Below are positions 19,101-29,465 of a stretch of DNA of 64,000 nucleotides, piece by piece. The position numbers and the translations under genes were made by a program. Numbering within the stretch: position 1 is the first letter of the stretch; the number at the start of each line of letters is the position of its first letter. This DNA is from Natronogracilivirga saccharolytica (GTDB taxonomy: Bacteria > Bacteroidota > Rhodothermia > Balneolales > Natronogracilivirgulaceae). The notes below the pieces were generated by a model, which saw only the letters and a program-made list of their open reading frames with translations, was not told the origin of the DNA and did not search any database. The stretch covers positions 62,001 through 126,000 of the forward strand of contig NZ_JAFIDN010000004.1 in the NCBI RefSeq assembly GCF_017921895.1, written 5' to 3'.

Positions 19101-22100
19101 TTGATCTACCGCATACTCCATATCGCCTGGAAAATTTTCTGGAGCAGTATACTGGTCCTTGCGGCTACAATTATGCTGTTCGCAGGAATGATTTTCCTGC
19201 TGCTTCAGACGGATCCGGTAAAAGGGTATCTCGCGGACCGCGTTGAAACCTGGTTTAACGATAACTACAAAGGAACCGTAACTGTCGGAGAAATTGGCGG
19301 CATTCTGCCGATACACGCCGAGCTTCACGACGTCGCACTCAAATATGATGAGGAAAAGGTCGCTTCTTTTGAACGGTTGAAAATCAGTGTCGATCTGATC
19401 GCACTGCTCAGAAACCATCTAACCGTCAATGACATCGACCTGTCACACCCCGATGTCATATTCCAAAAAGACGAAACAGGCATTTACACTCTTGCCCGTG
19501 CGCTGGAGCGCCATGCGGATGAAGATCCGGATGTCCCTGACCCCGAAACTATCCACAGACGCACCTTCCGGACCATTGATATCTACGCCCCGTTTCTGCG
19601 GGTCAGCGATGGCAGCGTAACTGTAAGAGACTGGCCCGATGAGCAGACAGCCGGATATCTCAACGAACCCTTCCACGTGCAGGACATAAGTATGGAAATG
19701 TTTCTCGAGATTTCTGAAGATCAGCGCTATCTCGACATCAGCCGTATTTCCATGCTCCTGGACGATCTGGGGCAGAAAGAGCTCACATTTTCGGGCCAGA
19801 TTTACAATGACAGCCGCTTCCTTGAGTTTAATGCGATAAATATCGGACTTGGCGAATCTTTTGTACGATGGGAAAGCGACCTGTCAGGTATCGACCTGCT
19901 CGCCGGAAATATCGCCGGGCAGTTTAAACAGGCACCAGTTTCAGGAAGAATCCACAACTCATTTTTCTCAGCAGATGAACTCGGGCTTTTCTATCAGGAT
20001 CTGCCGGAAAACTTTACCGGAGCGCGGTTTGGTGCCGGTTTTGAAGGTGACTCTGATATAATCCGGTTCGATGACGCCTTTGCGGATATCGGCACAAGCC
20101 ACCTCCGCTTCAGCGGCACGCTGGATAATGCAAGGCAGCCGGAGATTCTTGCATACAACATCGAACTGGAAGAAATGACAGTGGGTGACCAGGAGCTGTA
20201 TCTCATTTACCCGCAGGCCCGCGACTGGCCGGTTTCCGATTTGTCTGCAATTTCGGCCGGCGGAACGGTTGCCGGAACCCGGGACACGCTCGAAACCGAT
20301 ATGCAGCTACGCCTGCCGGAAGGTGAGGTGTCTCTTGCCGGCGGCATGCTGCTCAAACACCCGTATCCCATAGAGATGACAGCCTCAGGAAAGGAAATCA
20401 ACCTCGCTTCATTAAAAGGCCTGGAAAGCCACCCATCCAAGTTGAATGCGGAAATTCTCCTCGCTTCCGGCAACACACGGGACGAAAAGCCTGAGTTCCT
20501 TGTCAATCTGGATATCTTTGACTCCCGGTATGATCACATCAGTATTCCGGACTTTCATCTGGACGTTACCTATTCCGGCCGGATTGCCGCTCATGAGTTC
20601 GCCTACTATCAGGAGGATGCATTTATCAGCGGAGAGGGGCAGGCGGACTTCACCGGTGACCGTCCCCATGTCATGCTACAGGGGCGTTCTGAAGGTTTGA
20701 ATCTCCGTGATATAACCGACCGGGTAAACCTGCCGGAATCCAGCTGGAATATGTCTTATGATATCAACTGGCATGGATTGAATCCCGACAATGCCTTCGG
20801 CAGAATGGTCTTCGATATCATGCCTTCCAGCGTTAACGGCAGTGATTTGAGAGCCCACCAGCTTTATTTCGATCTAAACCACCCTGATAGTGACAAGCGC
20901 TCGCTCAGACTGACCAGCAGCGTATTGGACCTCTTGCTGGAAGGGGATCTAACCTTTTCTTCCGTCGGTAGCATAGTCAATCACTGGCACGATTATTTCG
21001 CCACCAGCATCCGCAGAGAATTTCTTTTCGAAGAGTTTGAAGAACCCGGTACCACGGAAGCAGACAAGATCTTTCCGGACGAACATCTCGAAGCTAGCGT
21101 TTTCCTGGAATTCAAGGACCTGGAGCTCCTGCAGTCCTACATCCCGGATATTCCGCTGATTTCCTCCCGCGGTTCACTTAATATGGATGTCAGCGCGGGA
21201 AGCGACAGTCTTGACCTTCAGGCGCGGTGGCAGGATGAACAGACCGACTGGAACGAACTCTCTCTCACCCGAAGTGATATCATCCTGAACGGATCATTCA
21301 GCCACAAACAACAGCTCCGGGAAAAAATGAACCTGGATGTCAACTTCCGGCTGGACCAGCTTGTCTACCAGGATCAAAAAATGGACACTCTTTACTGGGA
21401 TCTTGACTTCCGGGATGACAAGTTCACCAGCAGAACCAGAATTGAAAGCTTTTTTGATGAAGTCCGCTTTTCATCGTATGTCTCCGGTTCTATAACAGAT
21501 GACCTGGTACATCTCGGTATTGATGAATTCATCATCGGAAATGACCGGTATCTCTGGCAGGCCGAAAATCATCCGGTTATTACACTGGACAATAAGGGAA
21601 AACTGAAAGTGGACCAGTTCAGTCTGGCCAGCGGCAGTGACCGTGTCTTCATTGACGGAGTTTTCAGCAGCTCGGAGGAAGATTCCGTGATTTACCAGTT
21701 TGATGGTGTCAATCTTGACCGGATTTCCAGAATGATTGACGGCAGAATAGACTTTCAGGGTGAACTGAACGGAGACTTTGTCACCAAAGACCTGTTAAAT
21801 AATCCGATTTTTCAGGGCAGGCTAAATGCCGACAGGCTTGCCTTTGGCGGCAGAATCATTGGAGATGCCGAACTCACAAGTACCTTTAATGCCTCCGAAG
21901 ATCGGTTTGACACCAGGCTTACTGTGCTGACAGACGAGGAGAAATACAGTGATTATATTGAGCAGAATAACGGTGTGCGGCAGAATCTGACCGCAGAGGG
22001 ATGGTTCAGGGCACCGGGTGACAACCGCACCGCTGATTCACTATACTATTTTGATGTCAATGCCGAAGAGATTGATGCCTGGTTTCTGATCTATTTCATG

Positions 22101-23744
22101 GACAGCATTTTTGAATCTGTTGAAGGAAGCGGTAAAGGTACCGGATACATAACAGGTGATTTTGACCATATTGACTTCAGCGGTGATTTCGAAGTCAACG
22201 AAGTTGTGCTTAAACCCGTTTTCTTTGAAACGGAATACGTCGCCCGCGGACCTGTCAGTATGACTCGCAGCGAGGGGGTTACATTCCATGATCTCGACGT
22301 CAGAGATCGTGCCAGGGGTACCGGAGTGCTTTCAGGAAAATATGACTTCAATGATTTCGAACCTGAGAAGTTCATGGATATCACCCTGGAGATGGACAAT
22401 CTCATATTCCTGAACAATTCTGACGGTCCCGATGTGCCATTTTTCGGCAGCGTGGCGGGTACAGGAAAGGTGAACATCAGCGGCAGCAACGTGTCCCCGT
22501 ATGTCCGGACGATCGATCCCATACACACGACATCCCCGTCCCGCCTGGCCATCCCCCTGGTTGATCAGGGACTTGATGAAGATCAGGGGCGGTTCATCCG
22601 GTTTGTCAACGATTTTTCTGAATATGACCTCAGCCGCAGACTGTCTGACGACCCTGCCGTGCTTCGGCAGATTGACCGCTCCTTTATGGAAGTATTCCGG
22701 CTGGACCTGCAGTTTGTAGCCGGTGATAATTCTACCGTACAGCTTATTTTCGATCCGGTAACCGGTGAAATTGTAAATGCACAGGGCAGTGGACGAATCC
22801 GGATCAGCCTTGAAGATGAAAGCCTGGAAATCTTCGGGAATTTCAACATCGATGACGGGGATTACCTGTTTGTCGGCGGAGACATTCTGACCCGCCGGTT
22901 CACACTCCGGGAAGGAGGGACCATCCGCTGGGACGGTGATCCTTCCAATGCTCTGCTTGATATTACCGCCGTTTATCGTTCCAGGGCCAATATTGCGCCT
23001 CTGATGGGAGGAGGCCCTGAGGAAACGAACCGTATCCCCGTTGAACTGCTGCTCGAAATTACCGGTCCGATTGACAACATCGAAAACGACTTCTATTTCG
23101 ACTTCCCCAATGCCATAGATGCTACTCAAAATGCCGCCGTACTTAACGTTCTTAACAGTGAAGAGCAAAAACTGCTTCAGGCTACAAGCCTGTTGTTCAC
23201 CGGGGGGTTTATCTCCGGTGCTCTCGTCGGTGACACGCAGACACAGGAGCTCGGCACCACGCTTCAGGCACGCGCCGGCCAGGTCGGATTAAGTCAGCTG
23301 CTGTCCACCCAGATTAATACACTTCTTAGTGATAATATGCTCAATCTGGATGTGGATCTGAACCTTCTGGGCTTCGACCAGGCTGATCTCGGTATCGCCC
23401 TCAGACTGTTTGATGACCGGCTTGTACTGCGCAGGGAAGGTGAGGTTGGCGGAGAAGAAACCAATATCGGAGACCTGGGTGCAACTTACCGTATTAATCC
23501 TAATCTTTCGGTTGAAGTGTTCCACCGGAAAGACCCCATGCTGATGTCTATCCTCGGAACCCAGGCTGATGTGGAAAACGTCAACGGTGTGGGTCTGGAG
23601 GCACAATACAGCTTTAACTCATGGCGTGATTTCGGGAACAGGATATGGAGAAATGTCACAACCGTCTTTGGCTTGTTCGGCAGCAGTGATGATGAGGAGG
23701 ATGAAGAAGAACTTGAACCCGGAGTGGCTGCAACCGAGCCGTAA
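19101..23744 (+). CDS. tamB: TamB-family translocation and assembly module protein
   Basis: A very large (1547-residue) protein with one N-terminal membrane helix (about 9-32), a long periplasmic body of repeating beta strands, and a C-terminal TamB/DUF490 domain (about 1090-1530: FDPVTGEIVNAQGSGRIRISLED, GDYLFVGGDILTRRFTLREGGTIRWDG). TamB proteins form a hydrophobic beta groove that carries phospholipid between the membranes or helps barrel assembly. The start is TTG at 19101: an in-frame stop lies at 19089-19091 and the next ATG would remove most of the membrane helix. The TamA-type barrel partner is not adjacent. Confidence 0.88.
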   Translation: MIYRILHIAWKIFWSSILVLAATIMLFAGMIFLLLQTDPVKGYLADRVETWFNDNYKGTVTVGEIGGILPIHAELHDVALKYDEEKVASFERLKISVDLIALLRNHLTVNDIDLSHPDVIFQKDETGIYTLARALERHADEDPDVPDPETIHRRTFRTIDIYAPFLRVSDGSVTVRDWPDEQTAGYLNEPFHVQDISMEMFLEISEDQRYLDISRISMLLDDLGQKELTFSGQIYNDSRFLEFNAINIGLGESFVRWESDLSGIDLLAGNIAGQFKQAPVSGRIHNSFFSADELGLFYQDLPENFTGARFGAGFEGDSDIIRFDDAFADIGTSHLRFSGTLDNARQPEILAYNIELEEMTVGDQELYLIYPQARDWPVSDLSAISAGGTVAGTRDTLETDMQLRLPEGEVSLAGGMLLKHPYPIEMTASGKEINLASLKGLESHPSKLNAEILLASGNTRDEKPEFLVNLDIFDSRYDHISIPDFHLDVTYSGRIAAHEFAYYQEDAFISGEGQADFTGDRPHVMLQGRSEGLNLRDITDRVNLPESSWNMSYDINWHGLNPDNAFGRMVFDIMPSSVNGSDLRAHQLYFDLNHPDSDKRSLRLTSSVLDLLLEGDLTFSSVGSIVNHWHDYFATSIRREFLFEEFEEPGTTEADKIFPDEHLEASVFLEFKDLELLQSYIPDIPLISSRGSLNMDVSAGSDSLDLQARWQDEQTDWNELSLTRSDIILNGSFSHKQQLREKMNLDVNFRLDQLVYQDQKMDTLYWDLDFRDDKFTSRTRIESFFDEVRFSSYVSGSITDDLVHLGIDEFIIGNDRYLWQAENHPVITLDNKGKLKVDQFSLASGSDRVFIDGVFSSSEEDSVIYQFDGVNLDRISRMIDGRIDFQGELNGDFVTKDLLNNPIFQGRLNADRLAFGGRIIGDAELTSTFNASEDRFDTRLTVLTDEEKYSDYIEQNNGVRQNLTAEGWFRAPGDNRTADSLYYFDVNAEEIDAWFLIYFMDSIFESVEGSGKGTGYITGDFDHIDFSGDFEVNEVVLKPVFFETEYVARGPVSMTRSEGVTFHDLDVRDRARGTGVLSGKYDFNDFEPEKFMDITLEMDNLIFLNNSDGPDVPFFGSVAGTGKVNISGSNVSPYVRTIDPIHTTSPSRLAIPLVDQGLDEDQGRFIRFVNDFSEYDLSRRLSDDPAVLRQIDRSFMEVFRLDLQFVAGDNSTVQLIFDPVTGEIVNAQGSGRIRISLEDESLEIFGNFNIDDGDYLFVGGDILTRRFTLREGGTIRWDGDPSNALLDITAVYRSRANIAPLMGGGPEETNRIPVELLLEITGPIDNIENDFYFDFPNAIDATQNAAVLNVLNSEEQKLLQATSLLFTGGFISGALVGDTQTQELGTTLQARAGQVGLSQLLSTQINTLLSDNMLNLDVDLNLLGFDQADLGIALRLFDDRLVLRREGEVGGEETNIGDLGATYRINPNLSVEVFHRKDPMLMSILGTQADVENVNGVGLEAQYSFNSWRDFGNRIWRNVTTVFGLFGSSDDEEDEEELEPGVAATEP

Positions 23745-23804: not shown

Positions 23805-26003
23805 ATGAAGAAGAAAAAAGTACGTCTTGAGGACCTAATACTTGAAATCCTTGAAAGATATCCGGAAAGCTGGGTTGAAGAAGGAACCCTTATGGGAGCG
23901 TTCAAACTGCCCCGGAAAAAAGGTTTTCAGCGGTTCCAGAATGCCCTTGAAAAGCTTGCATCTAAAAATCAGATTGTCCGTAAAAACGGCAGCGTAAAAC
24001 GCAACACCAGTGGAAAATCGCCCGGAACAGTTGAAGGCATCTACTCAGAAACCCGCCATGGCAGCGGTTACGTAAAGGTTGAAGGATTGGAGAGAGACAT
24101 ACGGATACCCTCAAAGCATACCCATACGGCCCTGGATAAAGACCGCGTCAGGGTAGCCGTACAGAACAAATCCCGTAGCGACCGGACCGAGGGCAAGGTT
24201 GTGGAGGTGCTCGAACGCGGAAAATCATTTTTTGTCGGCACGTTTCAGAAAGAAAGCAAAAATACCTACCTCATTATTCCGGATGAAAAATCGGCCAGCA
24301 CAGAGTTTTTTGTCCATCCCGACAACACAAACGGGGCTAAGCATAATGACAAGGTCACATTCCGGCTTGTGGACTGGCTGCACCCGAGGTCGCTGCCGGA
24401 AGCAGAGGTGCTCGAAGTCCTTGGGAAAAAAGGCACAAACAATGCTGCCATCCTGTCGATTCTGGCTGAAAATGAGCTGAAAGCTGCCTTTCCCCGTGCC
24501 GTTGAAGAACAGGCCGAAAGTGTGGCAACCGAAATCCCTGCGAAAGAGTACCGGCGCAGAAAGGATATTCGAGAGATGGAGGTGTTTACAATCGATCCGG
24601 CAGATGCCAAAGATTTCGACGATGCACTCAGCATTCAGATTCTGGATAACGGCAATTTTTATCTTGGTGTGCATATCGCCGATGTCAGTTACTACGTACA
24701 GCAGGGAACCGCGCTCGATGATGAAGCAAAAGACAGGGGAACAAGTGTATATCTGGTGGACCGTGTTATTCCCATGCTTCCCGAAAGCCTCAGCAACGGT
24801 GTGTGCAGCCTGCGTCCAAATGAAGATAAACTGTCTCACAGCTGCTTTATGGAAGTAGCACCGGACGGCAATGTAGTCAATTACGAAATAGAGGAAACGG
24901 TTATTAATTCCTCACAACGGTTTGTATACGAAGAGGTCCAGGAAATCATCGACGGAAAAGAACACAAGCACGCCGAGTCTGTCCGCATTCTTGCAAAAAT
25001 GACATCCATGCTTACAGACAAGCGCTTCAGGGAAGGTTCCATCGATCTGGATACCCCGGAGCCGCGCTTCCGGCTTGATGATGCAGGAAAACCTCTCGGT
25101 GTTTTTGTGAAGGACCGGCTGCAGGCCCACCGGCTTGTCGAGGAATGTATGTTATTGGCTAACAAAACCGTATCCCGCCACATCTCAAAACTTCGTGAGC
25201 AGAACAAAAGCCGGAGAAAGCAGAATGAGACCTCCGGTAAAAGTGATACTTACGGAAAGCAGAACTATCCGTTTCTGTATCGCGTCCACGACCGGCCCGA
25301 CCCGGAAAAGCTGAAGAATATAGCCGAAAACGTTCGGCCGCTTGGTATTGAGTTCCCGGTTAAGGACGGAAAAATATCGGCATCCAAAATCAACAGTCTT
25401 ATCCGCGATGCCAATGAAACAAAACTAAAATACGCCATCAATGAACTCATCCTCAGGTCAATGGCAAAAGCGGTATACAGTCCCAAGAATATCGGACACT
25501 ATGGACTCGGTTTTAAGGAGTATACGCACTTTACGAGCCCCATCCGGCGTTATCCTGATCTGATAGTCCACAGACTTTTGAAACAATACGAAGCCGGTGT
25601 TCCCGCTTACAGTTTCAACGAACTGATTGCCCTGGGCGATCACTGCAGTGAAAAAGAACGGGATGCCGTAACTGCTGAAAGAGACTCTATTAAACTCAAA
25701 CAGGTGGAGTACATGTCGGCTCACATCGGCGAGACGTTTGATGGAGTCATCAGCGGGGTCAGTGACAAGGGCCTGTTTGTGATTCTGAATGAAAGCTACT
25801 GCGAAGGAATGATTGCCATCCGCGATCTGGATGATGATTATTATGTATATGATCAGTCGCTTCACCAGCTCCGTGGCAGAAGCCGCGGCAATGTATTCCG
25901 CCTTGGAGACGACATCACTGTAACCGTTGCCCGTACAGATATCGACCAGCGCCAAATCGATTTTCTGCCTGAAAGAAAAAAAACTGATCAGAAAAAAAGT
26001 TAA
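23805..26003 (+). CDS. rnr: Ribonuclease R
   Basis: A processive 3'-5' exoribonuclease of 732 residues, which degrades structured RNA. N-terminal winged-helix and cold-shock (OB) domains are followed by the RNB domain with the metal-binding acidic cluster IDPADAKDFDDALSI (Asp264, Asp270, Asp272, Asp273). The HYGLGFKEYTHFTSPIRRYPDL segment is diagnostic of RNase II/R. An S1 domain follows (FDGVISGVSDKGLFVILNESYCEGMI, from about 645). The basic C-terminal tail is short. It is 60 bp downstream of tamB. Confidence 0.93.
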   Translation: MKKKKVRLEDLILEILERYPESWVEEGTLMGAFKLPRKKGFQRFQNALEKLASKNQIVRKNGSVKRNTSGKSPGTVEGIYSETRHGSGYVKVEGLERDIRIPSKHTHTALDKDRVRVAVQNKSRSDRTEGKVVEVLERGKSFFVGTFQKESKNTYLIIPDEKSASTEFFVHPDNTNGAKHNDKVTFRLVDWLHPRSLPEAEVLEVLGKKGTNNAAILSILAENELKAAFPRAVEEQAESVATEIPAKEYRRRKDIREMEVFTIDPADAKDFDDALSIQILDNGNFYLGVHIADVSYYVQQGTALDDEAKDRGTSVYLVDRVIPMLPESLSNGVCSLRPNEDKLSHSCFMEVAPDGNVVNYEIEETVINSSQRFVYEEVQEIIDGKEHKHAESVRILAKMTSMLTDKRFREGSIDLDTPEPRFRLDDAGKPLGVFVKDRLQAHRLVEECMLLANKTVSRHISKLREQNKSRRKQNETSGKSDTYGKQNYPFLYRVHDRPDPEKLKNIAENVRPLGIEFPVKDGKISASKINSLIRDANETKLKYAINELILRSMAKAVYSPKNIGHYGLGFKEYTHFTSPIRRYPDLIVHRLLKQYEAGVPAYSFNELIALGDHCSEKERDAVTAERDSIKLKQVEYMSAHIGETFDGVISGVSDKGLFVILNESYCEGMIAIRDLDDDYYVYDQSLHQLRGRSRGNVFRLGDDITVTVARTDIDQRQIDFLPERKKTDQKKS

Positions 26004-26123: not shown

Positions 26124-29100
26124 ATGCTTACAAATTCTACTGCCTCCAATGAAGGTAGCTTCTTTTTCGTTGCAGCTGCCCGGTTGTCCATCATGCTTCT
26201 TGCCGGAATCCTGGCCGGATCCGCACTGATTTCCGAAACCCATGCCCAGTATTTCGGATTCGGAAAAAACCGGGTTCAATATTCCCAGTTCGACTGGCGA
26301 TTCATACAGTCAGACCATTTCGATGTCTACTATTATGACTCAAAAAACTACTACCTTGCGGAATTTACCGCAAAAAGCCTTGAAGCTGCCTACGCTCAGC
26401 TCTCCAGTGATTTCCGGCATCAGCTGAATGACCGGATTGCCGTGATTATCTATGACTCCCACACCGACTTCAGTCAGACAAACGTGGTTCCGCTCCCCGT
26501 TGACGCTCAAGGCATCGGTGGTGTTACCGACAAGATCAAAAACCGTATAACCATTCCTTTCATGGGACACTACGGGGATTACCGGCAGGTGCTGCACCAC
26601 GAGCTGGTACATGCCATGTTCAACGACAAATTTTACGGAGGCACCATCCAGTCCATCATCCAGAACAACATTCAGCTGCGGATTCCGCTCTGGTTCGAAG
26701 AGGGACTGGCCGAATATGTTTCGCTTGGCTGGGATACCGATACCGACATGTTCATAAGGGATGCCGTCATGAACAACAATATGCCCCCGATACCCATGAT
26801 GAGGGGTTTCATGGCTTACCGGGGCGGTCAGGCTTTCTGGAACTTTATCGTTGAAGAGTACGGCAGAGAAAAAATCGGTGAAATACTTCACAGGGTGCGG
26901 CAAACCCGCAGTGTTGAATCTGGGTTGCGCCAGTCGCTGGGGATCAGCATGTCGGATCTGAACGATCGTTTCCACGACTGGCTGAGGAAAATGTATTTCC
27001 CGGAAATTGCCGTGCGTGAAGATTTGCGTGATATCGGCCGGCTTATGACCGACGGCAACTTCCGACGTGCCTACAATACAAGCCCCGCTGTTTCTCCGAA
27101 CGGAGACCGCATTGCCATGATATCCAACGCCAGGGGCTATTTCGACGTTGTTGTGCTCAATGCCCGTGACGGAAGCAAGATCAAAACGCTCATAAAGGGA
27201 GAAGACAACGTAGATTTTGAAGAGTTGAATATCCTCCGGCCGAACCTCAGCTGGTCGCCTGACGGACGTAAAATAACCCTTTCTACCCGTTCAGGCGGTT
27301 CTGTGGATCTGGCCATCGTTGATTACCAGACCGGTGATGTGCAGAAAATCCTGTTTCCGCAACTGGATGATATCGGATCCGTTTCCTGGTCGCCTGACGG
27401 CAAGAAAATCGCCTTCCAGGGCAACAACGGACCGTTGACCAATATCTATGTTTACGACCTCGAAGAGGATGACTTTTTCAGTGCCACAAATGATGTCTTC
27501 AGTGACTGGGGCCCGTCCTGGTCGCCGGACTCCGAGTACCTTCTGTTCGCATCCGACCGCGGTTCTCACACGAGGGTCAATACGTTTCGTTCAAACTACA
27601 ATGTGCTGCTTAACCCAAACATCGGACAAAGTGATATTTACCGTCTGAGAATTGGTTCCAGCAGAGCTGAAAGGCTTACCAGCACGCCAAACTGGAATGA
27701 GTCCCGTCCCATAATGACCCGTGAAGGCCGGCTTCTTTACATATCCGATCAGAACGGTATTCCCAATGTGTACGAAATGGATCTGGAGACCCGCGCCAGT
27801 TATCCGCTGACTGACCTCATTACAGGAGTCATGCAGATGTCTGTCAGCGCAGACGGTCGCCTGCTGGCCATCAACTCCTACAACAGAGGCTTTGTACATA
27901 TTTTCACAATTGAGAATCCGATGGACAGAAGAAAGGATGAGCCGCTTGAAAACAACAACTGGGCAGAACGCAGACTCCAGGAGTCTAAGCAGGAGCGCGT
28001 GCCTGCTGTAGGCCTGGCATTCAATATGTTTCAGGATGACTGGGAGCGAATGAGAACCGCTGAGTTTATCGATCAGACTTCGGCTATCGTTGATCTGGTT
28101 CAGCGCAGGCAGGAAGAAGCCGTCCCGGACCAGGAGGTTTCAGGCGATCTTGCAGATATGCTGCCTCCGGATGATGCCGACGACCCCGATGCGGAACCGG
28201 CAGCACCTGATACAGAAGAGCCGGAAGAAGATGAGGATGAGGATGTTGTCGATTTCCGGAATTATGTGTTCGGCGATGATGTTGACGATTTTATCCGTAT
28301 CAGTCATGTCGAAGAAAGAGAAAGTGAGCGTCAGACCATAACCGAAGACGGCCGTTTTATCCCGCGGCGCTACCGGCTGGACTTTTCACCTGACATTTCC
28401 TACGGAGCCGGAGGAGTATCAACCTTTTACGGCACCTATGCCATGGCCGCCTTCTCATTCTCCGACCTGCTGGGTGACCATCGCATCGAACTGATTACCA
28501 ACCTGCAGTTCGACCTTCGCAACAGCGATTATCAGATCAGTTACGGTTATTTTGCCAACCGTACCAACTATATTGCGAATTATTTCCACACAGCCAGAAA
28601 TTTCCGGGTTCTTGTTCAGGATCAGCAAACCGGAGCCCTGGATACCGAACAGGTCCGGTTCCGCTATTATGGCGGCGGTATCCGTATGCAGTATCCTCTC
28701 AACAAGTTTACACGGATTGATTACGGAATCAACATGATCAACATTTCCCGCGACTTCAGCCGGATGAGTGGTGCGGTCCGCGACAGTGAGGATACCTACT
28801 TCTTTAACCCGGAAGTTACCTTTACCAGAGACCTGACCCGTCCGGGCTTTCTTTCGCCTCTGTCCGGCTATCGGTATGCTCTGAGTGTAAGCGGAAGCCC
28901 CCCGATTGCCTCCGATGTCATTGGTTTTGCTTCCGTTCTCGGTGATTTCCGCAGGTACTTCCATCTCGGTAGCGGCTATGTGTTTGCTTTCCGGGGTTCG
29001 GGTGCCGCCTCATTCGGGCCTGACTCCCAGAATTTCTACATGGGCGGCATGCAGAACTGGATCAACTTTCGCTGGGCTGAAGGCGGATTGCAGACCGATC

Positions 29101-29465
29101 GCCTGGAGGATGTTTTCTTCACACTTCCGGCCCTGCCAATGCGCGGACATTTCTTCAACTCCGCTCTTGGAAACCGGTTCGGATTGTTTAATGCCGAGTT
29201 CCGTTTTCCGCTCATAGCAGCCATGCTTCCGGGTCCCATCCCGATAATACCCCTTTATAACATTCAGGGTGCGGCATTTGTCGATGTCGGTGCGGCCTGG
29301 GACGGATCGACGCGTGATGCGGCACTTGCTGGCGCCGGATTCGGACTGCGGACCATACTTCTGGGATTGCCGTTCCGATATGACATTGCATGGCCCTATG
29401 ATATGGAGTCAGGTGACGGTTTTGGCAGGAGAGTGCATTACTTCAGTATCGGACTTGACTTCTGA
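26124..29465 (+). CDS. Gluzincin peptidase + TolB-type propeller + Omp85-like barrel fusion
   Basis: A 1113-residue exported protein with three joined modules. After a signal peptide (to about Ala41) comes a peptidase-MA-like gluzincin domain with HELVH (His159, Glu160, His163) and EEGLAEY (third ligand Glu197). From about 305 to 610 is a TolB-like beta-propeller (repeats SWSPDGRKITLSTR, SWSPDGKKIAFQ, SWSPDSEYLLFAS). After a very acidic linker (about 680-735) comes a C-terminal barrel resembling bacterial surface antigen/Omp85 barrels and ending in Phe. It could be an outer-membrane protease with its catalytic part facing the periplasm. The function is not established. It follows rnr by 120 bp. 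Confidence 0.82.
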   Translation: MLTNSTASNEGSFFFVAAARLSIMLLAGILAGSALISETHAQYFGFGKNRVQYSQFDWRFIQSDHFDVYYYDSKNYYLAEFTAKSLEAAYAQLSSDFRHQLNDRIAVIIYDSHTDFSQTNVVPLPVDAQGIGGVTDKIKNRITIPFMGHYGDYRQVLHHELVHAMFNDKFYGGTIQSIIQNNIQLRIPLWFEEGLAEYVSLGWDTDTDMFIRDAVMNNNMPPIPMMRGFMAYRGGQAFWNFIVEEYGREKIGEILHRVRQTRSVESGLRQSLGISMSDLNDRFHDWLRKMYFPEIAVREDLRDIGRLMTDGNFRRAYNTSPAVSPNGDRIAMISNARGYFDVVVLNARDGSKIKTLIKGEDNVDFEELNILRPNLSWSPDGRKITLSTRSGGSVDLAIVDYQTGDVQKILFPQLDDIGSVSWSPDGKKIAFQGNNGPLTNIYVYDLEEDDFFSATNDVFSDWGPSWSPDSEYLLFASDRGSHTRVNTFRSNYNVLLNPNIGQSDIYRLRIGSSRAERLTSTPNWNESRPIMTREGRLLYISDQNGIPNVYEMDLETRASYPLTDLITGVMQMSVSADGRLLAINSYNRGFVHIFTIENPMDRRKDEPLENNNWAERRLQESKQERVPAVGLAFNMFQDDWERMRTAEFIDQTSAIVDLVQRRQEEAVPDQEVSGDLADMLPPDDADDPDAEPAAPDTEEPEEDEDEDVVDFRNYVFGDDVDDFIRISHVEERESERQTITEDGRFIPRRYRLDFSPDISYGAGGVSTFYGTYAMAAFSFSDLLGDHRIELITNLQFDLRNSDYQISYGYFANRTNYIANYFHTARNFRVLVQDQQTGALDTEQVRFRYYGGGIRMQYPLNKFTRIDYGINMINISRDFSRMSGAVRDSEDTYFFNPEVTFTRDLTRPGFLSPLSGYRYALSVSGSPPIASDVIGFASVLGDFRRYFHLGSGYVFAFRGSGAASFGPDSQNFYMGGMQNWINFRWAEGGLQTDRLEDVFFTLPALPMRGHFFNSALGNRFGLFNAEFRFPLIAAMLPGPIPIIPLYNIQGAAFVDVGAAWDGSTRDAALAGAGFGLRTILLGLPFRYDIAWPYDMESGDGFGRRVHYFSIGLDF

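Follow-up and report, generated by a model that had tools for sequence, protein, structure and literature searches.

A single ATG-started frame in the window, i.e., the 64,000-nt stretch of Natronogracilivirga saccharolytica DNA that was analysed, encodes a gluzincin peptidase, a TolB-like beta-propeller and an Omp85-type barrel in one chain (Table 1). Profile searches (Pfam, Omp85) and structure predictions confirm both the three domains and their order, as they had been given in an initial annotation. The three-domain chain is no oddity, and its peptidase domain is kept across much of the Bacteroidota. What the analysis adds is that no part of the chain is better conserved than the peptidase, whose zinc site is intact in nearly all members; that this site was probably lost at least twice with layout and loop-6 motif retained; that the gene belongs to a tamB-rnr-gene string in Balneolales and Ignavibacteria; and that the acidity of the linker is not conserved. 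We read the protein as a periplasm-facing peptidase that would be tethered to the outer membrane together with an Omp85 gate and would serve the assembly or quality control of envelope proteins; we put the probability of this reading at about 50%. No description of the three-domain chain was found in the open-licence literature when searched by Pfam accessions and domain names.

Table 1. Features of the gene and of its upstream neighbours, with positions in the window.
Feature	Position	Strand	Basis
CDS, peptidase-propeller-Omp85 protein (1113 aa)	26124..29465	+	frame and full-length relatives
Sec signal peptide (likely), residues 1-42	26124..26249	+	read from sequence; putative cleavage site
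Gluzincin peptidase domain (Peptidase_MA_2), about residues 50-300	26271..27023	+	Pfam, model, Foldseek
HELVH zinc/catalytic motif, residues 159-163	26598..26612	+	sequence, alignment
EEGLAEY motif, residues 192-198, third zinc ligand E193	26697..26717	+	sequence, alignment
TolB-like beta-propeller, about residues 311-600, six blades by strand count	27054..27923	+	profiles, model, Foldseek
Disordered linker, residues 601-750 (~150 aa)	27924..28373	+	model pLDDT, alignment
Acidic part of linker, residues 683-711	28170-28256	+	sequence
Omp85-type 16-strand beta-barrel, residues 751-1113	28374..29462	+	profile, model, Foldseek, alignment
Loop-6 motif PMRGHFF, residues 1005-1011	29136-29156	+	sequence, alignment
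RNase R gene (rnr), directly upstream, part of conserved string	23805..26003	+	Pfam, neighbourhood comparison
tamB-like gene (1547 aa), part of conserved string	19101..23744	+	Pfam, neighbourhood comparison

Domain composition and predicted structure

The likely signal peptide is of the Sec type, ends in SETHAQ/YFGFGKN and has no lipobox cysteine. In the alignment consensus, AQ(F/Y) stands at the putative cleavage site and is followed by a conserved FGKNRVQY. Scans for promoters and terminators around the gene returned no more sites than shuffled sequence.

Peptidase_MA_2 matches residues 89-288 with 45.0 bits (Pfam cut-off 32.4). The zinc site is complete, i.e., both HELVH and EEGLAEY are present as annotated and the glutamate of the first motif is indeed Glu160; an HExxH is expected by chance about 0.015 times per protein of the same composition. 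For the peptidase alone, AlphaFold yields a model with pLDDT 84.6 and pTM 0.83, whose top matches in the PDB (Foldseek) are M9 collagenase peptidase domains (best E 4.5e-5), followed by M1 aminopeptidases. The HELVH region is thus predicted to fold as a gluzincin, and the HExxH with a downstream third Glu ligand places the domain among the gluzincins (Peptidase MA).

That the nearest fold is found in secreted collagenases would fit another reading, in which the barrel is only a secretion and anchoring device and peptidase and propeller sit on the cell surface, where they digest external protein. To our knowledge, however, folded propellers and peptidases are too big to pass a 16-strand Omp85 barrel, and the protein is a near-universal single orthologue in its order, which suggests housekeeping rather than feeding. 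Surface passenger models have long been proposed for the PlpD type (PMC11116518, introduction), but the PlpD enzyme domain was shown to stay periplasmic (PMC11116518). We therefore regard surface display as improbable. By likeness to PlpD, a periplasmic position of the enzyme domain is plausible.

The propeller is detected by PD40 (63.2 bits, Pfam). Its NCBIfam TolB score of 111.4 bits is far below the equivalog cut-off of 343, by which we rejected the protein as the organism's TolB; no protein of the window genome passes this NCBIfam cut-off. A full-chain AlphaFold run with 20 sequences (pLDDT 65.7, pTM 0.39) shows an alpha/beta N-terminal domain, the propeller at residues 319-600, a region with pLDDT below 50 (disorder) at 620-772 and, between 754 and 1109, the 16 strands of the barrel. 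Since its overall confidence is low, we read from this model the folds of the single domains and not their mutual orientation, and the low confidence counts against the assembly or quality-control reading. Compared with the PDB (Foldseek), the full chain matches TolB (E 1.8e-14) and then BamA. Against barrel-only BamA entries, the BamA-like barrel of this modest-confidence model has TM-scores of at most about 0.6 when scaled to the length of the target. Neither of the outcomes that the initial annotation named as refuting it, a predicted structure lacking a barrel or a HELVH region of another fold, thus occurred. It is plausible that the barrel of the protein anchors a protease in the outer membrane.

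Within a profile search of the genome, Omp85 (PF01103) scores 42.9 bits on the last third of the protein (cut-off 24), and the family is absent from the protein's hmmscan list at E<=0.01; the loci L056 and L133 score 33.7 and 55.7 bits. The NCBIfam BamA model gives 27 bits, far below its equivalog cut-off. The PF01103 profile, the 16 strands of the model and the loop-6 (V)RG(Y/F) motif place the barrel in the Omp85 superfamily. The chain ends in a C-terminal beta-signal, HYFSIGLDF, i.e., in Phe as annotated. No POTRA was found in the Pfam or NCBIfam scans, which also counts against the assembly or quality-control reading; what precedes the barrel in the model is the peptidase, the propeller and the disordered linker, other than in Omp85 proteins of the BamA/TamA/TamL type. 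A propeller directly before an Omp85 barrel, with no POTRA, is the hallmark of WD40-Omp85.

In every member a linker joins propeller and barrel; its length ranges from about 59 to 165 aa and its sequence is not conserved. The acidic part described in the initial annotation exists in the window protein; its interpretation as a hinge does not hold as a family feature. When strongly acidic is defined as a 20-residue stretch of linker that is at least half acidic, only 6/52 relatives qualify, all from the window's own order. Given this lineage-specific acidity, the hinge idea is without support and we read the linker as a tether.

Distribution and conservation

The search for the same architecture in other genomes that had been proposed found a match in 60/60 near relatives, mostly near full-length and split over contigs in some incomplete genomes, and in 192/296 genomes sampled across the phylum Bacteroidota (match counted at E <= 1e-20). 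The named loci belong to Balneolales and Ignavibacteria and are 39-83% identical to the window protein. More distant members (21-28% identity) are 1040-1160 aa long and keep all three regions. A 3.3-kb contig labelled Caldiserica (L063) encodes a 50% identical sequence and is probably a binning error.

Among 37 orthologues, mean identity to the window protein is 55% for the peptidase, 46% for the barrel, 45% for the propeller and 24% for the linker. That the peptidase is the best-conserved region argues for a working domain. Of the roughly 90 rows in the alignment, near-duplicates included, 85 keep the zinc-site residue H159, 87 keep E160, 85 keep H163 and 88 keep E193. This retention suggests that most lineages have an active peptidase. 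The loop-6 RG is kept in 51/53 rows, including those of a clade that lacks the zinc site, which indicates that the Omp85 machinery itself is under selection and suggests a barrel that is more than an anchor.

A tree for which the zinc-motif columns were left out shows two changes of the zinc site, one in the clade L125-L130 and one in L131. This clade is well supported; its six genomes come from five further Bacteroidota families, and their homologues have none of the zinc ligands left. Members without the ligands retain chain length, layout and the loop-6 RG motif. Taking the direction of change from this tree, made with a quick method and rooted at its midpoint, the zinc site was probably lost at least twice while chain layout and loop-6 motif stayed. 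Proteolysis would then not be essential to the core role of the family, and the separate losses suggest that peptidase and barrel functions may be uncoupled. The zinc-less clade with its kept layout and barrel motif counts against a role in assembly or quality control that involves the protease. It also speaks for a reading in which the peptidase is mainly a structural module that binds zinc or a ligand, catalysis being incidental or lost, and propeller and barrel carry the conserved function. Elsewhere, however, ligands and catalytic Glu are nearly invariant and no part of the chain is better conserved than the peptidase, such that we consider this reading unlikely.

A paralogous clade (L112-L117, L137; 1029-1084 aa) has an intact zinc site and ends in PGW, not in the usual xDF. 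An apparent lack of the loop-6 RG in this clade was rejected as an alignment artefact, the motif being present there as FVRGY/VRGF. The window genome further encodes a second, distant protein with peptidase-MA and propeller (L135:1485-5201, minus strand, G000:C12; 1238 aa, HEFTH), in which no Omp85 domain was recognised, and a Tricorn-type protease with PD40, PDZ and S41 domains (L136:1329-4634, minus strand, G000:C1).

Gene neighbourhood and other Omp85 proteins

The gene follows tamB and rnr on the same strand, and aroB precedes all of them. We observe the tamB-rnr-gene string in all Balneolales loci with enough upstream sequence as well as in several Ignavibacteria, where the frames directly abut. 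Elsewhere in the phylum, the string is absent or rnr alone is adjacent (L143). Adjacency within 10 kb is expected by chance in about 1% of genomes, a hand estimate from genome size and the number of TamBs; being seen in two lineages, the string does not represent many independent events. We count it in favour of the envelope assembly or quality-control reading. Since RNase R lies between tamB and the gene, the linkage may also be that of a general gene string. On the opposite strand and convergent with the gene lies that of a plug-domain protein of type 9 secretion (PF17116; 29551-30891, minus strand), a neighbour also present at several Balneolales loci (L044, L046, L050, L053, L138, L140).

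Eight Omp85 proteins are encoded in the window genome according to the profile search. Beside the protein studied here, these are BamA, TamL, a TamA-like protein, a patatin-Omp85 (G000:C12), a further POTRA protein and two barrels without an N-terminal domain. We thus rejected the idea that the protein replaces TamA or TamL, both types being encoded elsewhere in the genome. The top Omp85 match in five genomes (G105, G158, G164, G171, G220) is as long as a BamA and is encoded about 14-18 kb away from the gene, on its strand; these genomes belong to the two families with the Ignavibacteria-type string.

The conserved gene order, abutting in Ignavibacteria, speaks for an alternative in which the protein is a second outer membrane partner of the neighbouring TamB and takes over lipid or outer membrane protein clients from this periplasm-spanning protein, peptidase and propeller forming a head for docking or regulation where other Omp85 proteins have POTRAs. 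Consistent with it, the genome has two TamBs, one beside the gene under study and the other (G000:C6:75508-82100) with the TamA-like, POTRA-bearing Omp85 as its direct neighbour in the same orientation, and in several genomes the TamL barrel profile gives a weak match to the barrel. But TamL, the TamB partner expected in the phylum, has a homologue in 17/17 genomes checked, string-bearing ones included, the gene is not near tamB outside Balneolales and Ignavibacteria, and the RNase R gene is a closer and equally conserved neighbour. Such a partnership is the least improbable of the alternatives, and we still hold it to be unlikely. With tamB as a neighbour in two lineages, and with a zinc site that was probably lost at least twice from an otherwise retained chain, it is doubtful that the machine is self-contained, as the initial annotation had it.

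Proposed mechanism

For the assembly or quality-control reading, we infer the periplasmic side, the catalytic activity, the type of client, the gate function and any link to TamB from the features above. Sec would export the protein, and the Omp85 barrel at its C-terminus would sit in the outer membrane, such that the peptidase and the six-bladed TolB/BamB-like propeller would hang in the periplasm below the barrel on a flexible tether. The propeller would most likely dock a partner or an unfolded envelope-protein client, and the zinc peptidase might clip or clear a client that stalls or needs processing. With its loop-6 lock motif, the barrel would act as a gate or insertase and not as a plain anchor. 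One chain may thus combine the barrel of BamA, the propeller of BamB and the zinc protease BepA, which are separate proteins in E. coli, and serve as an accessory factor in envelope assembly or quality control.

A bolder conjecture extends this to the whole WD40-Omp85 subfamily, which would then be an outer membrane gate that brings its own periplasmic zinc protease, a BamA/BamB/BepA-like fusion working with a dedicated TamB, in which the protease decayed to a pseudo-protease scaffold in some Bacteroidota; we think this improbable. If the proposed mechanism is true, a large bacterial group would have an outer membrane machine with its own protease. The relatives with and without zinc ligands form a natural series in which one may ask whether the core function lies in proteolysis or in gating by the barrel.

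Comparison with known systems

PF00149 is a family of metallophosphatases, as we take it, and not of peptidases. A separate 'Metallo' group of Omp85 proteins was defined on this family by Heinz and Lithgow (2014; PMC4104836). They also defined the WD40-Omp85 subfamily with its TolB-like propeller and suggested a BamA-BamB-like fusion, so that the propeller-barrel part of the initial annotation was already known. The window protein shares with this subfamily the TolB-like propeller before an Omp85 barrel and the lack of POTRAs; as difference to the main-text description, in which no peptidase is mentioned for the group (PMC4104836), a gluzincin peptidase precedes the propeller here. Later, Hanson et al. 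(2024; PMC11116518) called the WD40-like and metalloprotease Omp85 subfamilies not well characterised. For WD40-Omp85, named since 2014, the conserved zinc site before the propeller offers a testable enzyme activity.

Omp85 assembly factors usually handle their clients with POTRAs. With BamA, TamA and TamL, the window protein shares the 16-strand Omp85 barrel and the loop-6 RG, whereas no POTRA was found in it. TolB shares sequence and fold of the propeller; the window protein has no recognisable TolB N-terminal domain and is fused to a barrel instead. PlpD and the patatin-Omp85 proteins also carry an N-terminal enzyme domain on an Omp85 barrel, but PlpD combines a lipase with one POTRA where the window protein has a zinc peptidase and a propeller and no POTRA.

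BepA of E. coli (M48) is likewise an HExxH metallopeptidase, of a fold family that differs from that of the window peptidase. It is described as a periplasmic Zn-metallopeptidase at the BAM machine that promotes or degrades LptD (PMC8423444). By this likeness, the window protein is expected to be a protease in the periplasm at an Omp85 machine as well. BepA, however, is soluble, carries a TPR domain and is a protein of its own, whereas the peptidase studied here is fused to the barrel.
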